A stretch of 64,000 nt of DNA. It comes from Geodermatophilus poikilotrophus. GTDB lineage: Bacteria > Actinomycetota > Actinomycetes > Mycobacteriales > Geodermatophilaceae. The notes under the pieces were generated by a model. It worked only from the letters and a program-made list of their open reading frames with translations, did no database searches and was not told the origin of the DNA. This document shows positions 5,420-31,066 of the stretch, in pieces (within the stretch, counting starts at the first letter, position 1; each line of letters begins with the position of its first letter). The position numbers and the translations under genes were made by a program. Location of the stretch: NCBI RefSeq assembly GCF_900111455.1, contig NZ_FOIE01000004.1, positions 186,001 to 250,000 of the forward strand, given 5' to 3'.

Positions 5420-7189
5420 TCAAGTGGTCGGGACGGGCACCTCCGTGACCTCGATCCAGCTGCTCCCCCCGAAGTGCACGGTGTTGCGGCACGGGTACGG
5501 CGGCACCGGCATGTCGAACTGCGCATAGCCCTCGCTCGGGTCCATGCGGAGCAGGTCGATCCGGCTGGCGAGCTCGAGCCGCAGGGTGTCACCGCGGCGC
5601 AGCAGCGTCGGCCCCGGGGTCAGGCTGAAGCGGAGGACGACCGGTTTGTCTGGGACGAGTGGCTCCCGGCGCCCGGCGTCGATGGCGATCTCGAGCGGCG
5701 TGCTGCGTTCCTCTTCCTCCGTGCGGGACACCGGACGGATCGCGCCGAGCGAGAGCTGGTGACGCTCCCCCGCTGCATCGAGCCGGGACAGTCGGGCGAC
5801 GACGTACGAGTCGATCTCGTTGCAGCTGTAGGTGAGCCGTGCGGTGACCGGGCCCGCGAGCTGGGTGTCCTGCTCGACCGGCAGGTCGAAGGCGAGTGTC
5901 TGGTCGGCCACGTCGTCCATGCCCCCGAGCAGCGGGAGCCCCAGGGGGACGGCGACCCAGGACCCGGAGCCCTCAGCCGTCGCCTCCCGGCTCAGCCGGT
6001 GGGTCGTGGCGTCCTCGTCGGGGGACCCGAGGTGCAGACGCCGGACGTCGCCGCCGGCGGGTGGGAAGGCGTCGGCGGTCTCGAAGCGCTCGGCGCCCTC
6101 GATCCAGTAGCGCACGCGCGGTTGCTCGGCATAGCCGTTGTCGGTGCCGCGCAGAAGATGGTCGAAGAAAGCCAGCGCCTCGCCCTGCCACGAGTAGACC
6201 GGCAGGTCGTATGCCGGCGGGGCGAGGATGAGCCACCGGGAGTCGGCGGGCGTCGCCGCGTTAGCGACCAGGTCGTAGCAGCCGAACTGGTGGAGGTTGA
6301 AGTACCCAAGGTTCTGCACGACCGTGAAGGGCACCTCGACGTCGCCGAGCGTGGCGGTCGGGCCCTCGGGGATCGTCGCTTGCGCGCGCGTCTTCTCGTC
6401 GAACATCCAGCGCGCGTAGATGCGGCGCATGAACTCCACGGGCGTGGCGGACTCGAAGGACTCGAACATCCCGGACACCCGGTGGTGGACCAGCCGCTCC
6501 AGGAGCGGGTGCAGCGGCCCGTTGGTGACCTGGCTGAGGAGTGCACGACGGCCTGGTGACAGGCGCTGGTCGTAGTTCTGCTGGGTGTAGTTCGCGCCCA
6601 TCCAAATGGCGGCGAAGAACCAGGCGGGCACGCCGGCAAAGTGCATCATGTGCCGCCACAGGTCGGTCGAGACCTCGTTGCAGAACAACGCCTTGAGCGC
6701 CGGTGGCTTGCGCGCGGCGACGCTGAGCTGGGACACGGCGTAGTAGGAGGTGCCGAAGAGCACGACCTCCCCGTTGCACCACGGCTGCTCACCCGCCCAG
6801 GCGATGACCGCCTCGTGGTCGTCGATGTCCTGCGGGTCGAAAAACATCACCTGCTCGCCGGTGGAGCGGCCCATTCCTCGGCGCTCGACGACGACGGGGC
6901 AGTAGCCGCGGTCGGTGAACACCGGCGGCGAGCCGATCTCGTTCGACCCCGTCGGGATGCCCGCCGTGTGCGTCTCCGTGGCGTAGCCGCCGAAGGACAC
7001 GACGGCCGGGTAACGGCCCGGCGCGCGCGGGGTATAGACGTCGGCGTGCAACTCGGCGCCACCGGCGACCGGGATGCGCTGGTCGGCCAGCACACGGTCG
7101 CCGAGCCCGTCCATCGCGACGGCGCGCGGCTGCCAGCCGGCATACTGCCGGCCGGCGGTCGAACCTTCCAAGGGGATGTGCGGGGTCAT
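5420..7189 (-). CDS. CocE/NonD-family (X-Pro dipeptidyl-peptidase S15-like) hydrolase
   Basis: A 589-residue cytosolic hydrolase. Residues ~30-330 form the S15 alpha/beta hydrolase core. RRGMGRSTG near 103-111 and the nucleophile elbow FGTSYY (Ser ~148) are typical of CocE-type esterases and acylases. The C-terminal ~250 residues form the PepX_C jelly-roll domain (for example RLTYSCNEIDSYVVARL). It probably hydrolyses an ester or amide; the substrate cannot be told from sequence. The ATG start overlaps the stop of the upstream TetR gene by 4 bases (ATGA), so the two are translationally coupled and the regulator likely controls this enzyme in response to its substrate. Confidence 0.88.
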   Translation of the reverse strand: MTPHIPLEGSTAGRQYAGWQPRAVAMDGLGDRVLADQRIPVAGGAELHADVYTPRAPGRYPAVVSFGGYATETHTAGIPTGSNEIGSPPVFTDRGYCPVVVERRGMGRSTGEQVMFFDPQDIDDHEAVIAWAGEQPWCNGEVVLFGTSYYAVSQLSVAARKPPALKALFCNEVSTDLWRHMMHFAGVPAWFFAAIWMGANYTQQNYDQRLSPGRRALLSQVTNGPLHPLLERLVHHRVSGMFESFESATPVEFMRRIYARWMFDEKTRAQATIPEGPTATLGDVEVPFTVVQNLGYFNLHQFGCYDLVANAATPADSRWLILAPPAYDLPVYSWQGEALAFFDHLLRGTDNGYAEQPRVRYWIEGAERFETADAFPPAGGDVRRLHLGSPDEDATTHRLSREATAEGSGSWVAVPLGLPLLGGMDDVADQTLAFDLPVEQDTQLAGPVTARLTYSCNEIDSYVVARLSRLDAAGERHQLSLGAIRPVSRTEEEERSTPLEIAIDAGRREPLVPDKPVVLRFSLTPGPTLLRRGDTLRLELASRIDLLRMDPSEGYAQFDMPVPPYPCRNTVHFGGSSWIEVTEVPVPTT

Positions 7190-25942: not shown

Positions 25943-27028
25943 ATGACCGACCTGCTCGCCATCGGCACGCGCAAGGGCCTGTGGCTGGCCCGCAGCGACG
26001 ACGACCGCCGCACCTGGACCCTGGGTGAACCGCACCTGCTCGCCCAGGAGGTCGCGGCTGTCTCGATCGACACCCGCGGCCCCGGCCCGCGCGTGCTGGC
26101 CGGCGTCCAGTACGGGCACTGGGGTCCGACGGTCATGCGGTCCGACGACCTCGGCGCGAGCTGGCAGGAGACCGAGGCCGGCGCCATCCGCTTCCCCGAG
26201 GACACCGGCGCGGCCCTCGCCCGGGTCTGGCAGCTGCGCCCCGACAGCGCCGACCGGCCCGGCGTCGTGTGGGCCGGCTGCGAGCCGCACTCGCTGTGGC
26301 GCAGCACTGACGGCGGCTGCAGCTTCGAGCTCGTCCGCGGCCTGTGGGACCACCCGCACCGGCCGACCTGGGAGCCCGGCGGCGGGGGAGGGGCGGTGCA
26401 CACGGTGCTGCCCGACCCCGCCTCGGACCGGGTGACCGTCGCGATGAGCACCGGCGGCGTCTACGTCAGCGAGGACGGCGCCTCGACGTGGGAGCCGCGC
26501 AACGCCGGCATCAGCGCCGTCTTCCTGCCCGAGCCCGCGCCCGAGTACGGCCAGTGCGTGCACAAGGTCGCCGTCGACGCGGCCGGCCCGGACCGGATGT
26601 ACGCGCAGAACCACTTCGGCGTCTTCCGCACCGACGACGCCGGCGGGTCGTGGACGTCGATCGCCGAGGGCCTGCCCGCCGACTTCGGCTTCCCGGTCGT
26701 CGCCTCGCCGTCCGCCCCCGGGACGGCGTGGGTGGTCCCGCTGGTGGCGGACATGCAGCGCGTGCCGCCGGAGGGCCGGCTGCGCGTGCACCGCACCCGC
26801 GACGCGGGCGGGAGTTGGACCGGACTGGGGTCAGGTCTGCCCGACCGGTTCTGGGCGGCGGTCATGCGGGACGGGTTCTGCGCCGACGAAGGCGACCCGA
26901 CCGGGCTCTACGTCGGCACCCGCGACGGCTGCGTCTACGCCAGCGCCGACGAGGGCGACACCTTCAGCCTCGTCGCCGACCACCTGCCTGACGTGCTCGT
27001 CGTCCGCGCCGCCCGGATCCCGGGATGA
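25943..27028 (+). CDS. BNR/Asp-box repeat beta-propeller protein
   Basis: A 361-residue protein with no signal peptide. Asp-box repeats of the type S-x-D-x-G-x-T/S-W recur: RSDDLGASW, RSTDGGCSF, SEDGASTWE, RTDDAGGSW, RTRDAGGSW, SADEGDTF, marking a six- or seven-bladed sialidase-like beta-propeller. It lacks the Arg triad context needed to call a sialidase and belongs to the WD40/YVTN/BNR-like group of unknown function. ATG 25943 follows GGAGGGG. Its stop overlaps the start of a MoaD/ThiS-like gene by 4 bases, so the proteins are likely made together. Confidence 0.85.
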   Translation: MTDLLAIGTRKGLWLARSDDDRRTWTLGEPHLLAQEVAAVSIDTRGPGPRVLAGVQYGHWGPTVMRSDDLGASWQETEAGAIRFPEDTGAALARVWQLRPDSADRPGVVWAGCEPHSLWRSTDGGCSFELVRGLWDHPHRPTWEPGGGGGAVHTVLPDPASDRVTVAMSTGGVYVSEDGASTWEPRNAGISAVFLPEPAPEYGQCVHKVAVDAAGPDRMYAQNHFGVFRTDDAGGSWTSIAEGLPADFGFPVVASPSAPGTAWVVPLVADMQRVPPEGRLRVHRTRDAGGSWTGLGSGLPDRFWAAVMRDGFCADEGDPTGLYVGTRDGCVYASADEGDTFSLVADHLPDVLVVRAARIPG

Positions 27029-27306
27029 GGGTCGAGGTGGTGCTGCCCGGTGTCCTCGCCGACCTGGCCGGCGGCACCCGGCACCTGGAGGTCGCCCCGG
27101 GCGGGGGCGCGCTCGCCGACCTGCTCGACACGCTTGCCGTCGTCCACCCGCGGCTGGCCCGCCGGATCCGCGACGAGGCCGGCGCGGTGCGACGCTTCGT
27201 CAACGTATACGTGGACGGCGAGGACGTCCGGTACGCCGGCGGGCTGGGCACGCCGGTGCCCGACGGCGCCGTCGTCCAGGTGCTGCCGTCGGTGGCCGGC
27301 GGGTGA
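27025..27306 (+). CDS. MoaD/ThiS-family ubiquitin-like sulfur carrier
   Basis: A 93-residue beta-grasp protein ending in Gly-Gly (PSVAGG), the feature through which MoaD, ThiS and ubiquitin-like modifiers are adenylated and thiocarboxylated. The middle has ALADLLDTLAVVHPRLARRI and FVNVYVDGEDVR, typical of MoaD-like proteins. The ATG overlaps the preceding BNR-repeat gene. No MoaE, MoeB or ThiF gene is nearby, so it may serve another sulfur-transfer or protein-tagging route involving the propeller protein. Confidence 0.88.
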   Translation: MRVEVVLPGVLADLAGGTRHLEVAPGGGALADLLDTLAVVHPRLARRIRDEAGAVRRFVNVYVDGEDVRYAGGLGTPVPDGAVVQVLPSVAGG

Positions 27307-27553: not shown

Positions 27554-27806
27554 GGCCCCAGGGTCGCCACGACGAGCCGGGCCGGGCCAGCACCCGCGGG
27601 GCGCGTGTCGGCTGCACCCGCCCCAGCCGTCGCTGCCGTCACAGGGGCGCACCACCGGGGGCGGGACCGGATCGGACTCGACTGTCGCCGTCCGGGGACC
27701 GGAGCGCGTTCGTGACCGCACGCGGCGGGGCCCGACGGCGTCGGCGGACCCGGTCAGCCACTGCCGGTGCGCACCCCTGCCTGGAACCGGCGGGGTCCGT
27801 CGGCGG

Positions 27807-27995
27807 CTACTCGCGGACGACCCACACCTCGGCCGGTCCCTGTGGCGTGCTCCGCACCTCCACGGGCTCGAAACGCTGGTAGACCCCGAACCAGCGGGGC
27901 CCGTCGTAGACCAGCACCGAGGACGTCAGCATCTCGGCGGCCACCTCGTCGATCTCGCCGTGCCGCGGGCCACCCCAGTGGAAGATCAACGGCAT
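27807..27995 (-). CDS. Small hypothetical protein
   Basis: A 62-residue protein, MPLIFHWGGPRHGEIDEVAA to RSTPQGPAEVWVVRE. The alternation of hydrophobic residues (SVLVYDGPRWFGVYQRFEPV) suggests a small beta-rich fold, and codon positions look selected. No named domain and no clear ribosome site. It lies alone on the minus strand. Confidence 0.5.
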   Translation of the reverse strand: MPLIFHWGGPRHGEIDEVAAEMLTSSVLVYDGPRWFGVYQRFEPVEVRSTPQGPAEVWVVRE

Positions 27996-28475
27996 GGGGG
28001 CACGCTAGCCCTGTCCTGTTCCGACGTCGTGGGCAGGACGGCGCGGACGACCGGCATCGGGCCGGTCCGGGCGCGGACGTCGGTGTCCACGTCCCTCCCG
28101 ATGCACCCGGGGTCGGGGGCGCGGTACTGGGCGACGGCGGTTCGGGCCTCCGGGCCCACCCACCGTGACTTCGGCCGTCGGGAGGGGGCCCCGGCGCGTA
28201 GGGTCGGTGGCTGGGAGCGGCTCAGCCGCTCATGGGTGGCCCCGGACCCGGCGACCTCACCGGTTTCCTGGGGAGAACTCCGTGCGCGCCTCACTCGACG
28301 TCACGCCTGCCAGCGGCGAGTCGGGTCCTGCGGTCCCCGGGTACCGGGGCCGTTCGTCGCCGCCACGGGAGGGTGGCAGCCGGCGGCCACCGCGCGGGCA
28401 CCCGGACGCCCCGCGGCTGCCCGACGTCCGCCACGCCGACGGTCGCGGCGGAGCAGCGCCCGGCGTGAGGACGCC
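27996..28475. other. Gene-free stretch
   Basis: About 480 GC-rich bases upstream of the PRC/HATPase gene. A long frame is open through it but lacks conserved sequence. The promoter for the downstream gene should lie here; no clear hexamers are visible. Confidence 0.4.
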
Positions 28476-29459
28476 GTGATCACCCGGCAGCAGATCCGCG
28501 CCCTCCTGCGCCACGGAGGACAGGTCGTCGATCCCGCGGGCCACCCGGTGGGCCGCATCGTGCACGTGCTCCTGGGTGCGCAGACGAGTCAGCCGACGTG
28601 GGTGACCGTCGAGTGTCAGCTGTGCGACGGGATCCAGGTCTCCGTCCCGCTCGCCCGGGCGCACCAGCTGGGCGACTGCCTCCAGGTGCCCTACGCAGCG
28701 GCCGACGTCTGCGGCGCTCCGCGCACCGACGGGTCAGCCGACCGCCTCGACCGGCAGCCGGGGGAGGAACTCCTCCGGTACTACGCCCACCTGGACGACG
28801 GCGCCCCGGTGGTGCCACCCCGCCACACCGACCGGGCCACCGCCGCGGCCTGGTCGCCGGCGCCTGCCGGTCCTGGCACGCCTGTGGTGGCCACCAACGG
28901 CCACCGGCGGACGGGCGCCGCGTCACCGGGCTCGTTCCTCGGTCGCTCCGGGGTCGACGTCCTCCCCGTCCGTCCGGGGCTCGACGTCCACCCCGAGGAG
29001 TACAGCCTCCCCGCCTACCCGGTGACCCCCTCCGGGCCCTGGCCACCGGTGTCGATGTCCTCCCCCGAACCGCCGTGGTGGCACCGCCGACAGTGGCGCT
29101 GGCCATCGGTCCCCACGTCGATCAGGGGGATGCGGCTGGAGCTGCAGCCCCTCCTCGACATGACCGGACTGCCCGAGGACGAGCTCGACGACCTGCTCCT
29201 GGCCGCATCCGAGGCCGCCGCCAACGCCGTCGAGCACGCCCGCCTCCCCACCCCACCCTTCTTCGACGTCCTCACGGAGGTCGGTGAGCACCGGGCGCGC
29301 ATCGTCATCCAGGACCGCGGTCGCTGGCGGGCACCCACCGCCCCGGGCGACCGCGGCCGCGGCCTGCAGGTGATGGGCGTCCTGGCCGACGCCACGCTCA
29401 CCGTCGGGTCACGGGGCACGACAGTGGTCCTGCGCAACCGTCGGAGGGGGACCGACTGA
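28476..29459 (+). CDS. PRC-barrel domain fused to an RsbW-like ATPase domain
   Basis: A 327-residue protein with an unusual order. Residues ~8-105 match PRC-barrel proteins of actinobacteria (VVDPAGHPVGRIVHVLLGAQ, TWVTVEC, LQVPYAAADV, EELLRYYAHL). A Pro-rich linker (~110-210) follows. Residues ~215-325 are a HATPase_c_2 anti-sigma kinase domain with ASEAAANAVEHAR (N-box), IQDRGRW (G1) and RGRGLQVMGVLAD (G2). PRC barrels bind other proteins or ribosomal parts, so the barrel may recruit or localise a partner-switching kinase. GTG 28476 has a weak site, but conserved sequence begins immediately. Two GAF-ANTAR genes follow on the same strand. Confidence 0.8.
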   Translation: MITRQQIRALLRHGGQVVDPAGHPVGRIVHVLLGAQTSQPTWVTVECQLCDGIQVSVPLARAHQLGDCLQVPYAAADVCGAPRTDGSADRLDRQPGEELLRYYAHLDDGAPVVPPRHTDRATAAAWSPAPAGPGTPVVATNGHRRTGAASPGSFLGRSGVDVLPVRPGLDVHPEEYSLPAYPVTPSGPWPPVSMSSPEPPWWHRRQWRWPSVPTSIRGMRLELQPLLDMTGLPEDELDDLLLAASEAAANAVEHARLPTPPFFDVLTEVGEHRARIVIQDRGRWRAPTAPGDRGRGLQVMGVLADATLTVGSRGTTVVLRNRRRGTD

Positions 29460-29582
29460 CCGGAGGGCTCCGACGTCGGCGGGCAGCCCGGGCGGGGGGT
29501 GCCCGGACCTCACCGGCCGCCCCCGAGAGGGAGATGCTGATCGCCAGGCCGGCCGAGCACCGGTGCAGGCAGAGGGGTGGGC

Positions 29583-30272
29583 GTGGCGTCGAGACGGGTG
29601 GCCGAGATCCTGCGCGCAGCCTGGGCCGAGTCGCCCGACAGCAGCGGTCTGCCGGCCAGCCTGACCGCCGCGTGCGTCCGTTCCCTGCCGGTGAGCGGGG
29701 TGGGCATGGCGCTGATGACCGACGAGGGGCCGGCGGGGATCATCGCCGCGACCGACGGCGCGGCGATGGAGCTGGAGGAGCTCCAGTTCACCTTGGGGGA
29801 AGGCCCGTGCGTGGACGCCTCGCAGACCGGCCGCCCCGTGCTGCAGCCGGACCTCGCCCTGACCGCGCCGCTGCGCTGGCCCGCCTTCGCCGGAGGAGCA
29901 CTGGAGGCCGGCGTCCGCGCCCTCTTCGCCTTCCCGCTCCGGGTCGGCGTGCTCGACCTCTACCGGGACCGGGCCGGCCCGCTGTCGGCCGACGACCTCA
30001 CCGAGGCCCTGTCGTTCGCCGACGCAGCGACGCCGGTCCTGCTGAACGCGCAAGCCGGGTACCCGGTGCTGTCGCCGGTCCCGGTCCTCGACGACCGGGC
30101 CGAGGTGCACCAGGCGACCGGCGTGGTCTCCGTGCAGGCTGCGGTGGGACTGGCCGAGGCCCTCGTCCTGCTCCGTGCGCGGGCGTTCGCCGACCAGCGG
30201 GCCCTCGGCAACCTGGCGCGCGACGTCCTCACGGGGACGGTGTCGTTCCGGAAAGATGACGGGACCGGCTGA
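29583..30272 (+). CDS. GAF protein with degenerate ANTAR-like tail
   Basis: A 229-residue protein. The GAF domain (~10-150) contains FTLGEGPCVDASQ. The C-terminal helices (VHQATGVVSVQAAVGLAEAL and RALGNLARDVLTGTV) follow the ANTAR layout but lack the usual QAKGI core. GTG 29583 follows GGGG; GTG 29577 is also possible. It probably senses a small molecule or redox state and may bind RNA weakly or pair with another regulator. It is 62 bases upstream of a further GAF-ANTAR gene, a likely operon. Confidence 0.8.
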   Translation: MASRRVAEILRAAWAESPDSSGLPASLTAACVRSLPVSGVGMALMTDEGPAGIIAATDGAAMELEELQFTLGEGPCVDASQTGRPVLQPDLALTAPLRWPAFAGGALEAGVRALFAFPLRVGVLDLYRDRAGPLSADDLTEALSFADAATPVLLNAQAGYPVLSPVPVLDDRAEVHQATGVVSVQAAVGLAEALVLLRARAFADQRALGNLARDVLTGTVSFRKDDGTG

Positions 30273-30334
30273 CACGAGAGCGTGGTGGCGGACGCAGGAT
30301 GGGACCCGGTCGACCGGGGTGGGAGGGAGTGAGG

Positions 30335-31066
30335 GTGCGGGAACAACGCCTCGCGGAGGTCTTCGTCGAGCTCGCCGACACCCTGGTCGAGGAGTTCGAC
30401 GTCATCGACTTCCTGCAGACCCTCACCGAGCGCTGTGTCGAACTGGTCGACACCGACGCCGCCGGGCTGATGCTCGACGACCAGCGCGGCCACCTCCAGG
30501 TGGTCGCCTACACCGACGAGTCCGCCCGACTGCTCGAACTGTTCGAGCTGCAGAGGGCGGAGGGACCCTGCCTGGACTGCTTCGCCACCGGCGAGGCCAT
30601 CGCGAACATCGACCTGACCGCCTCCAGGAGCCGGTGGCCGGTGTTCACCGAGGCGGCGCTGGGATCCGGATACGCCTACAGCCACGCCCTGCCGCTGCGC
30701 CTGCGCCGGCAGGTGCTGGGCGCGCTGAACCTGTTCTCCGTCGAAGGACGAGCGCTCACCGACGAGCACCTGGCCGTCGCCCGGGGCATGGCTGACATCG
30801 CCACCATCGGCTTGCTGCACGAGCGTGCTCTGCGTGACCAGGTCGTCCTGGCCGAACAGCTGCAGACCGCGCTGCACAGCCGGATCGTGATCGAGCAGGC
30901 CAAGGGCGTGCTGTCGGCCCAGGCCGGGATCGGCGTGGGGGAGGCGTTCACCCGCATGCGCACCCACGCAAGGCGCAGCGGTGCACAGCTGATGACCGTC
31001 GCGGAGGCCGTGGTGACCGGCACGCTGGACGACGGCGACATCCGGCCGGTGGTCGACTCGGCGTGA
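30335..31066 (+). CDS. GAF-ANTAR signalling protein
   Basis: A 243-residue sensor-regulator. The GAF domain (~20-165) includes LQRAEGPCLDCFATG. The ANTAR domain (~185-235) has VIEQAKGVLSAQAGIGVGEA and then a conserved helix ending VAEAVVTGTL. Its family, with an intact QAKGV core, binds paired RNA hexaloops and prevents termination. GTG 30335 was chosen because GGGAGG is at the proper distance. It lies downstream of the PRC/HATPase fusion and the degenerate ANTAR gene. Confidence 0.88.
   Translation: MREQRLAEVFVELADTLVEEFDVIDFLQTLTERCVELVDTDAAGLMLDDQRGHLQVVAYTDESARLLELFELQRAEGPCLDCFATGEAIANIDLTASRSRWPVFTEAALGSGYAYSHALPLRLRRQVLGALNLFSVEGRALTDEHLAVARGMADIATIGLLHERALRDQVVLAEQLQTALHSRIVIEQAKGVLSAQAGIGVGEAFTRMRTHARRSGAQLMTVAEAVVTGTLDDGDIRPVVDSA

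Follow-up and report, generated by a model that had tools for sequence, protein, structure and literature searches.

A rare PRC-barrel/RsbW-like kinase fusion gene behind a candidate RNA leader in Geodermatophilus

Architecture and distribution of the fusion gene

The forward strand of the window, by which we mean the whole 64 kb stretch of DNA analysed, carries a gene that joins a PRC-type barrel to an RsbW-like kinase domain (28476..29459, 327 aa). Read directly from the sequence, its stop-free frame runs for 327 codons from a GTG at 28476 to a TGA at 29459 and encodes three successive parts: the predicted barrel with an RYY-type tail helix (residues 1-108, 28476..28799, supported by sequence matches, an AlphaFold model, and Foldseek), a proline-rich linker of very low model confidence (residues 109-203, 28800..29084), and a HATPase_c_2 (RsbW-like) domain (residues 204-327, 29085..29456, supported by Pfam, Foldseek, and alignment). 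The linker comprises 95 residues, 20 of them prolines. An earlier sequence-only reading of this DNA had proposed that barrel, HATPase_c_2 domain, and Pro-rich linker share one frame, which the 327-codon open frame confirms. Block-mean pLDDT values of the AlphaFold model are 66-87 for residues 1-80, 23-36 for residues 111-200, and 36-65 for residues 201-327; the barrel is therefore modelled with fair confidence and the kinase part poorly.

The same architecture occurs at five loci, namely in the window genome, twice in G003 and once in G023, all of the same genus, and once in G086, from another genus, so that the fusion does exist in other genomes, a point that the sequence-only reading had proposed to check. 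The four orthologues compared with the window copy are L039, L040, and L041 (same genus; L041 is the G023 copy) and L084. With 19 candidates scored per genome, the fusion is present in 4 of 112 family genomes belonging to two genera (another family search scored at most 36 per genome). Scanning a collection of genome contigs with two peptide patterns yielded 42 loci, three of them with the barrel, from G003 and G086, and among the matches listed for 394 genomes of the class, with five candidates scored per genome, both halves shared a frame in the window genome only. We found no published description of a PRC-kinase fusion in the titles and abstract openings searched, most of the subscription literature lying outside this search. 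It is very improbable that the fusion is a missed stop, a frameshift, or an assembly error. One copy (L041) does carry a one-nucleotide shift at its start, but the fusion recurs at five loci in two genera with a frame that is continuous across the linker, and for the window the artefact is already refuted by the other loci. The fusion is rare, lineage-restricted, and genuine, a rare variant of known parts. The shift in L041 (8339-8341) lies right behind the usual GTG and disrupts the junction, so that either the start of this copy is ambiguous or the copy is damaged.

Identity of the two halves

The N-terminal half of the window protein has no PF05239 match in a Pfam scan, and a PF05239 search of its own genome returned eight other places, the fusion not being among them. 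The four orthologues scanned score 21.3 bits (L041, cut-off 21.2), 15.0 bits (L039), 14.5 bits (L040), and nothing (L084). Sequence comparison links the N-terminal residues to many PRC proteins in the family, one of them a PF05239 hit of the same genome (G000:C8, E 2.1e-10), and residues 1-108 share 38% identity with L049, a PRC protein of canonical appearance. A Foldseek search with the whole AlphaFold model gave two kinds of match: RsbW/SpoIIAB/UsfX chains on the one hand, reaction-centre H subunits (2i5n_H, E 1.8e-4) and MTH1859 (1pm3_A, E 9.5e-4) on the other. The latter are assigned to the barrel half because the other kind of match corresponds to the kinase, the search output giving no aligned residues. 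On these sequence matches and the predicted structure, the N-terminal half is a PRC-type barrel despite the missing Pfam match in the window copy. It resembles PF05239 and the PRC proteins encoded in these same genomes, which we take to be of the DUF2382 type, in its barrel fold and RYY-type tail, and differs from them in being joined to a kinase and, for the window copy, in falling under the Pfam threshold.

The C-terminal half matches HATPase_c_2 (PF13581) over residues 211-320 (E 7.8e-15, 55.4 bits, cut-off 27.4). In an alignment with RsbW and Rv1364c, it keeps the residues that align with the RsbW ATP site: E246 and N250, presumably the Glu and Asn of the N-box, D280 and G282, which we take to be the Asp/Gly of G1, and GRGL (within GRGLQVM), presumably the Gly-rich G2 box, all with assumed roles in the ATP site. 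It shares with RsbW, SpoIIAB, and UsfX the ATP-binding fold and these boxes, 6m37, 1thn, and 8ih8 being among the best Foldseek matches, and the only solved sequences that it matches are RsbW and Rv1364c (3ke6, the best-scoring one for the kinase half). It departs from the RsbW/SpoIIAB/UsfX proteins by its N-terminal PRC barrel, its long linker, and its place in the genome, since none of the four neighbouring proteins scanned (two GAF-ANTAR, one ThiS-like, and one DUF1707) is a STAS protein or a sigma factor. Its NCBIfam scores also lie far under the equivalog cut-offs (26.6 versus 145 bits for RsbW and 30.8 versus 210 for RsbA), which could mean that this half is not a kinase and serves instead as an ATP-binding or purely protein-binding module. 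We consider this unlikely in view of the conserved ATP-site residues and of the restriction of the solved matches to Rv1364c and RsbW, the former having a similar box itself (drgqw).

A dual-hairpin leader and its genomic neighbourhood

Upstream of the fusion gene, on the same strand, lies a dual-hairpin leader (28199-28285). This stretch holds a -10-like hexamer of the form TAnnnT (TAGGGT, 28199..28204), read directly from the sequence, followed by hairpin 1 (GAGCGG-CTCAG-CCGCTC, 28215..28231), recognized in an alignment of 23 leaders, and by hairpin 2 (28235..28256), supported by the pairing tests given below, whose stem GGTGGCC/GGCGACC has one G-G mismatch and closes an 8-nt loop, CCGGACCC. 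This loop is nearly invariant and the hairpin adjoins the ribosome-binding site of a leader ORF, a Shine-Dalgarno-like GGGGAG (28270..28275); no other such hairpin with a ribosome-binding site and start context occurs in the 64 kb window. The leader ORF itself (28282..28479, 65 aa) ends in a TGA that overlaps the GTG of the fusion (GTGA). At loci with this direct layout, 42-49 nt separate the start codon from the first base of hairpin 2 or of the core, and a Shine-Dalgarno-like motif falls in between. By eye, -10-like hexamers are similarly placed upstream of the leader in other loci. At L064, L065, and L044, inspection by eye further shows GTTT or GTGT, 15-16 bases, and GGGTA upstream of the leader, a pattern that we take to resemble a sigma-B-type promoter.

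Downstream of the fusion on the forward strand are gafA (29577..30272, start codon putative), with a GAF domain and a weak ANTAR match (18.9 bits, cut-off 27.3), and gafB (30299..31066), with a GAF domain and an ANTAR match of 57.7 bits. Four of the five fusion loci (window, L039, L040, and L041) have gafA and gafB downstream, >80% identical to those of the window, and the G086 fusion has no GAF-ANTAR homologue within the 7 kb fetched. Matches to gafB at E <= 1e-45 occur in 29 of the 112 family genomes. On the other side, a ThiS/SAMP1-like small protein is encoded at 27025-27306 (57.1 bits, NCBIfam cut-off 60), its own neighbour being conserved along with it in G003. In that genome (L039, 3237-6463), about 3.2 kb, including another GAF-ANTAR-like stretch, separates the homologue of orf27 from the fusion, the corresponding distance in the window being about 0.75 kb.

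All five fusion genes lie behind the conserved leader. The four same-genus loci share a strongly conserved block that lies about 190-240 bases ahead of the fusion start. When its 24-base core was searched for in the 112 family genomes, 54 of them yielded a total of 86 sites with <=3 mismatches, many of these being chance matches. The 18 sites with <=1 mismatch in a 22-base core all precede a gene of one of two kinds, a HATPase kinase (14 sites) or a STAS gene (four); the conservation of the core reflects in part the selection of the leaders, which were found through it. GAF-ANTAR homologues lie within about 3 kb of 15 of these 18 close leaders, one of them (G010) being weak and on the opposite strand; the leaders without a nearby homologue are G003:C14, G023:246298, and G086:C7. 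The 14 leader-linked kinases comprise the five fusions and nine barrel-less genes, one of which is shortened and another frameshifted.

Rfam gave no match within 27600-30400 at E <= 1, and at the gathering score the window yields only two tRNAs; the leader is likewise undescribed in the titles and abstract openings of the literature on leaders and ANTAR, on the genus, and on anti-sigma factors, most subscription literature being outside the search. A narrow leader model (R1) matched 200 of 298 order genomes at E <= 0.05, a level at which chance matches are expected. Among 27 of these order loci inspected (L108-L134), L108-L111 are family leaders, and none of the sites re-found at <=3 mismatches in the remaining L112-L134 has a kinase or STAS gene placed in the leader layout; elsewhere in L112-L134, the best 22-mer has 5-7 mismatches and the site of R1 itself is mostly not displayed. 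The leader has so far been seen within the family alone, and might conceivably occur outside it. In the window genome, there are ten matches of the 14-mer GCCCCGGACCCGGY, the window site being the only one that combines >=6 pairs with a start at leader spacing; L262 and L268 likewise reach six pairs, and L268 has a GTG at +58.

Evolution of the barrel relative to the kinase

A tree built from 42 PRC domains places the barrels of all five fusions in one clade (98/83), and 96% of 200 bootstrap trees require a single change for the fusion; the tree is flagged for long branches and for two compositionally odd rows. A tree built from 21 kinase domains unites the four fusions of the same genus in a clade (98/96) and joins the G086 fusion to two kinases that lack a barrel (90/88), which means two changes of the fusion label on the kinase tree. 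One gain followed by a later loss is compatible with both trees, helped by the shared junction, recombination being a further possibility; the barrel has probably been lost at least once, as these sequences suggest. A gene with the start MISAEDI at a similar junction and no barrel is found at L081 (met again as L145).

Between the window copy and L039, L040, and L041, dN/dS is 0.82, 0.51, and 0.53 for the barrel, 0.63, 0.63, and 0.86 for the linker, and 0.49, 0.42, and 0.43 for the kinase; against L084, it is 0.80 for the barrel and 0.72 for the kinase, and pN/pS between L040 and L041 is 0.83 for the barrel versus 0.36 for the kinase. In a further alignment (A5), rows L049 and L002 were used, and row L050, which is out of frame, was left out. 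Judged by the dN/dS and pN/pS ratios, the barrel evolves faster and is less tightly constrained than the kinase. It could accordingly be a passenger: a PRC domain that was once captured, plays no part in docking, and is drifting to loss next to a kinase that works alone. Such a course, which we regard as a serious possibility although not the probable one, agrees with the nine barrel-less genes among the 14 leader-linked kinases, with the barrel dN/dS of up to 0.82 and the L040-L041 contrast in pN/pS, with the sub-threshold PRC score of the window copy, and with L081, whose PRC-like start persists where the barrel is gone. Against it, the barrel remains open at five loci down to about 40-50% identity and is modelled with fair confidence, and its dN/dS falls to 0.51-0.53 in the comparisons with L040 and L041. 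The sequence-only reading had imagined a kinase that carries its own docking domain, to be abandoned if orthologues split the two domains. Such splitting exists in part, in the nine kinases without barrel behind close leader matches, and five loci keep the fusion; the recurrence of the fusion and the conserved ATP-site residues support this reading in part, the barrel-less orthologues and the weaker constraint on the barrel weigh against it, and docking would be a hypothetical role of the barrel.

Pairing in the leader and comparison with ANTAR targets

The alignment of 23 leaders predicts two hairpins. In helix 1, 86.7% of the cells are paired and four of five pairs show changes on both sides. 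For the 23 leaders, 93.2% of cells pair, with 10 both-side-changed cells versus 3.8 in shuffles; the covariation score and the number of pair types both exceed those of all 500 shuffles, and the number of double-change pairs is reached by 15 of 500. Sliding by +2 columns as a control likewise gives five pairs with double changes, and all these figures flatter the structure, which was obtained from these very rows, themselves related to one another.

A less biased set consists of 20 loci collected by gafB homology with the known leader loci excluded (one of them, L252, had been seen earlier as a weak match, L089). Requiring the exact loop and >=6 of 7 pairs, we found eight hairpins in 7 of the 20 loci, compared with a mean of 0.08 (maximum 2) in shuffles and of 0.28 (maximum 3) with 100 permuted loops. 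The same test gave eight hits in 114 controls; 31 controls that had been fetched through the leader hold four of them, which leaves four hits in 83 loci (416 kb). When the loop was relaxed, to a definition fixed after the variants had been seen, and >=5 pairs plus a ribosome-binding site and start were required, 11 hairpins appear in 10 of the 20 gafB loci, against none in the 83 controls and a mean of 0.3 (maximum 2) in shuffles; in the other 10 loci, the hairpin is absent even under this looser search. The 14-mer GCCCCGGACCCGGY alone, with no demand on outer pairing, has 11 sites in the 20 gafB loci with a mean of 3.27 of 4 outer pairs, versus 1.56 of 4 at the nine sites elsewhere in the window genome, and has no site in the 83 control loci, which span 416 kb at nearly the same GC content (0.723 vs 0.724).

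The stems diverge widely and yet pair, for example TGTTGCC/GGCAGCA, TACTGCC/GGCGGTA, and CGCCGCC/GGCGGTG. Over 20 chosen sites (17 distinct), eight of them preselected by the pairing filter, the covariation score is 0.450 versus 0.239 in shuffles (reached by 0/500), with 18 double-change cells; the double-change pairs are matched by 89 of 500 shuffles and the pair types by 63 of 500, so that neither stands out. In single-sequence folding, most shuffles of the leader region come out more stable than the region itself (z +1.67). Hairpin 2 is also an inverted repeat with a constant centre, located in many loci downstream of a -10-like hexamer (by eye), as might be expected of a DNA operator for a transcription factor rather than of an RNA element. 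An operator seems improbable to us, however, because the loop of the hairpin varies less than the outer stem does, because the stems vary between loci and still pair, G-U pairs included, where a symmetric operator would be expected to retain its half-sites, and because the distance to the ribosome-binding site and start codon is nearly fixed. The genes behind the hairpins at gafB-homology loci encode, among others, STAS-ANTAR proteins (L242 and L243), a fatty-acid desaturase (L248 and L245), and GAF-ANTAR proteins (L256, with GAF assigned by Pfam and ANTAR below the cut-off, and L257, assigned by position). In two same-genus genomes, the hairpin (L248, 4005-4026, and L245, 4008-4029) precedes a desaturase gene located just behind gafB, identified by PF00487 (112 bits) in L248 and by likeness in L245.

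ANTAR-target RNAs are dual stem-loops, often near a ribosome-binding site, with a consensus of hexanucleotide loops that have A at position 1 and G at position 4 (PMC8164766). Compared with that description, the leader is similar in its two stem-loops, its short linker, its position as a 5′ leader by the ribosome-binding site, and its linkage to ANTAR genes, and differs in lacking A1/G4 hexaloops, the window loops being CTCAG in hairpin 1 and the CCGGACCC octaloop in hairpin 2. Because it deviates from the hexaloop consensus as given there (PMC8164766), we do not file it as an ANTAR target; by analogy, it may work like one.

The leader ORF and its junction with the fusion gene

An NTGA overlap between the leader ORF and the next start is found at 9 of the 10 loci examined, L249 being the one without it, and the leader ORFs range from 18 to 174 codons. 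Such an overlap is cheap, as an A, G, or T before the TGA suffices, and what carries weight is that the overlap start is also the PRC-like one (V/M-I-T/S) in L039, L040, L146, and the window, and that it is in frame with the kinase in barrel-less loci. Between the window and L039, the 65 codons of the leader ORF have 15, 6, and 11 mismatches at the first, second, and third positions, respectively. There is no third-position excess, and the leader peptide itself is thus probably not under selection; we rejected it as a conserved product on the basis of this comparison.

A proposed mode of action

We propose that these elements form a small regulatory operon in the order RNA leader, leader ORF, fusion kinase, GAF-ANTAR, and GAF-ANTAR. 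The trees and the shared junction suggest that, in a module that already existed, a PRC barrel was inserted on a single occasion between leader and kinase; this barrel is related to PRC proteins that are present several times over in these genomes. The leader would be a cis-acting RNA, as its pairing with changed stems and its place by the ribosome-binding site indicate. It would set initiation at the leader ORF, ribosomes finishing this ORF would re-initiate at the GTG with which the fusion overlaps it, and the leader may in this way control the amount of kinase made. The GAF-ANTAR products of the operon are, by linkage, the likeliest readers of the leader. Judging from the domain families, a STAS protein encoded elsewhere would be the partner that the kinase domain binds or phosphorylates, and the barrel, on its flexible linker, might act as a tether. 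Taken as a whole, this model of a lineage-restricted fusion in a leader-controlled operon, with coupled translation and GAF-ANTAR proteins that read the leader, appears to us somewhat better than an even bet.

The leader is a more surprising result than the fusion. More tentatively, and at odds that we would place below even, it could represent a new class of cis-regulatory RNA in which GAF-ANTAR proteins read the octaloop, wiring these RNA-binding sensors to partner-switch kinases, STAS proteins, and a fatty-acid desaturase across Geodermatophilaceae through NTGA-coupled re-initiation. To our knowledge, few GAF-ANTAR proteins have known targets, and the leader would, if this is true, offer them a short and testable candidate RNA. 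It would also link two styles of regulation that tend to be studied separately: partner switching, based on a kinase and a STAS protein, and the binding of RNA by ANTAR sensors. As related genomes retain the operon without the barrel, the fusion lends itself to a natural comparison that would show whether a kinase can be redirected by a PRC barrel. One further locus (L147, G086:C2; core at 5557, minus strand) has the leader followed by a 72-aa kinase remnant and then by homologues of gafA and gafB, as if leader and GAF-ANTAR genes had outlasted the kinase.
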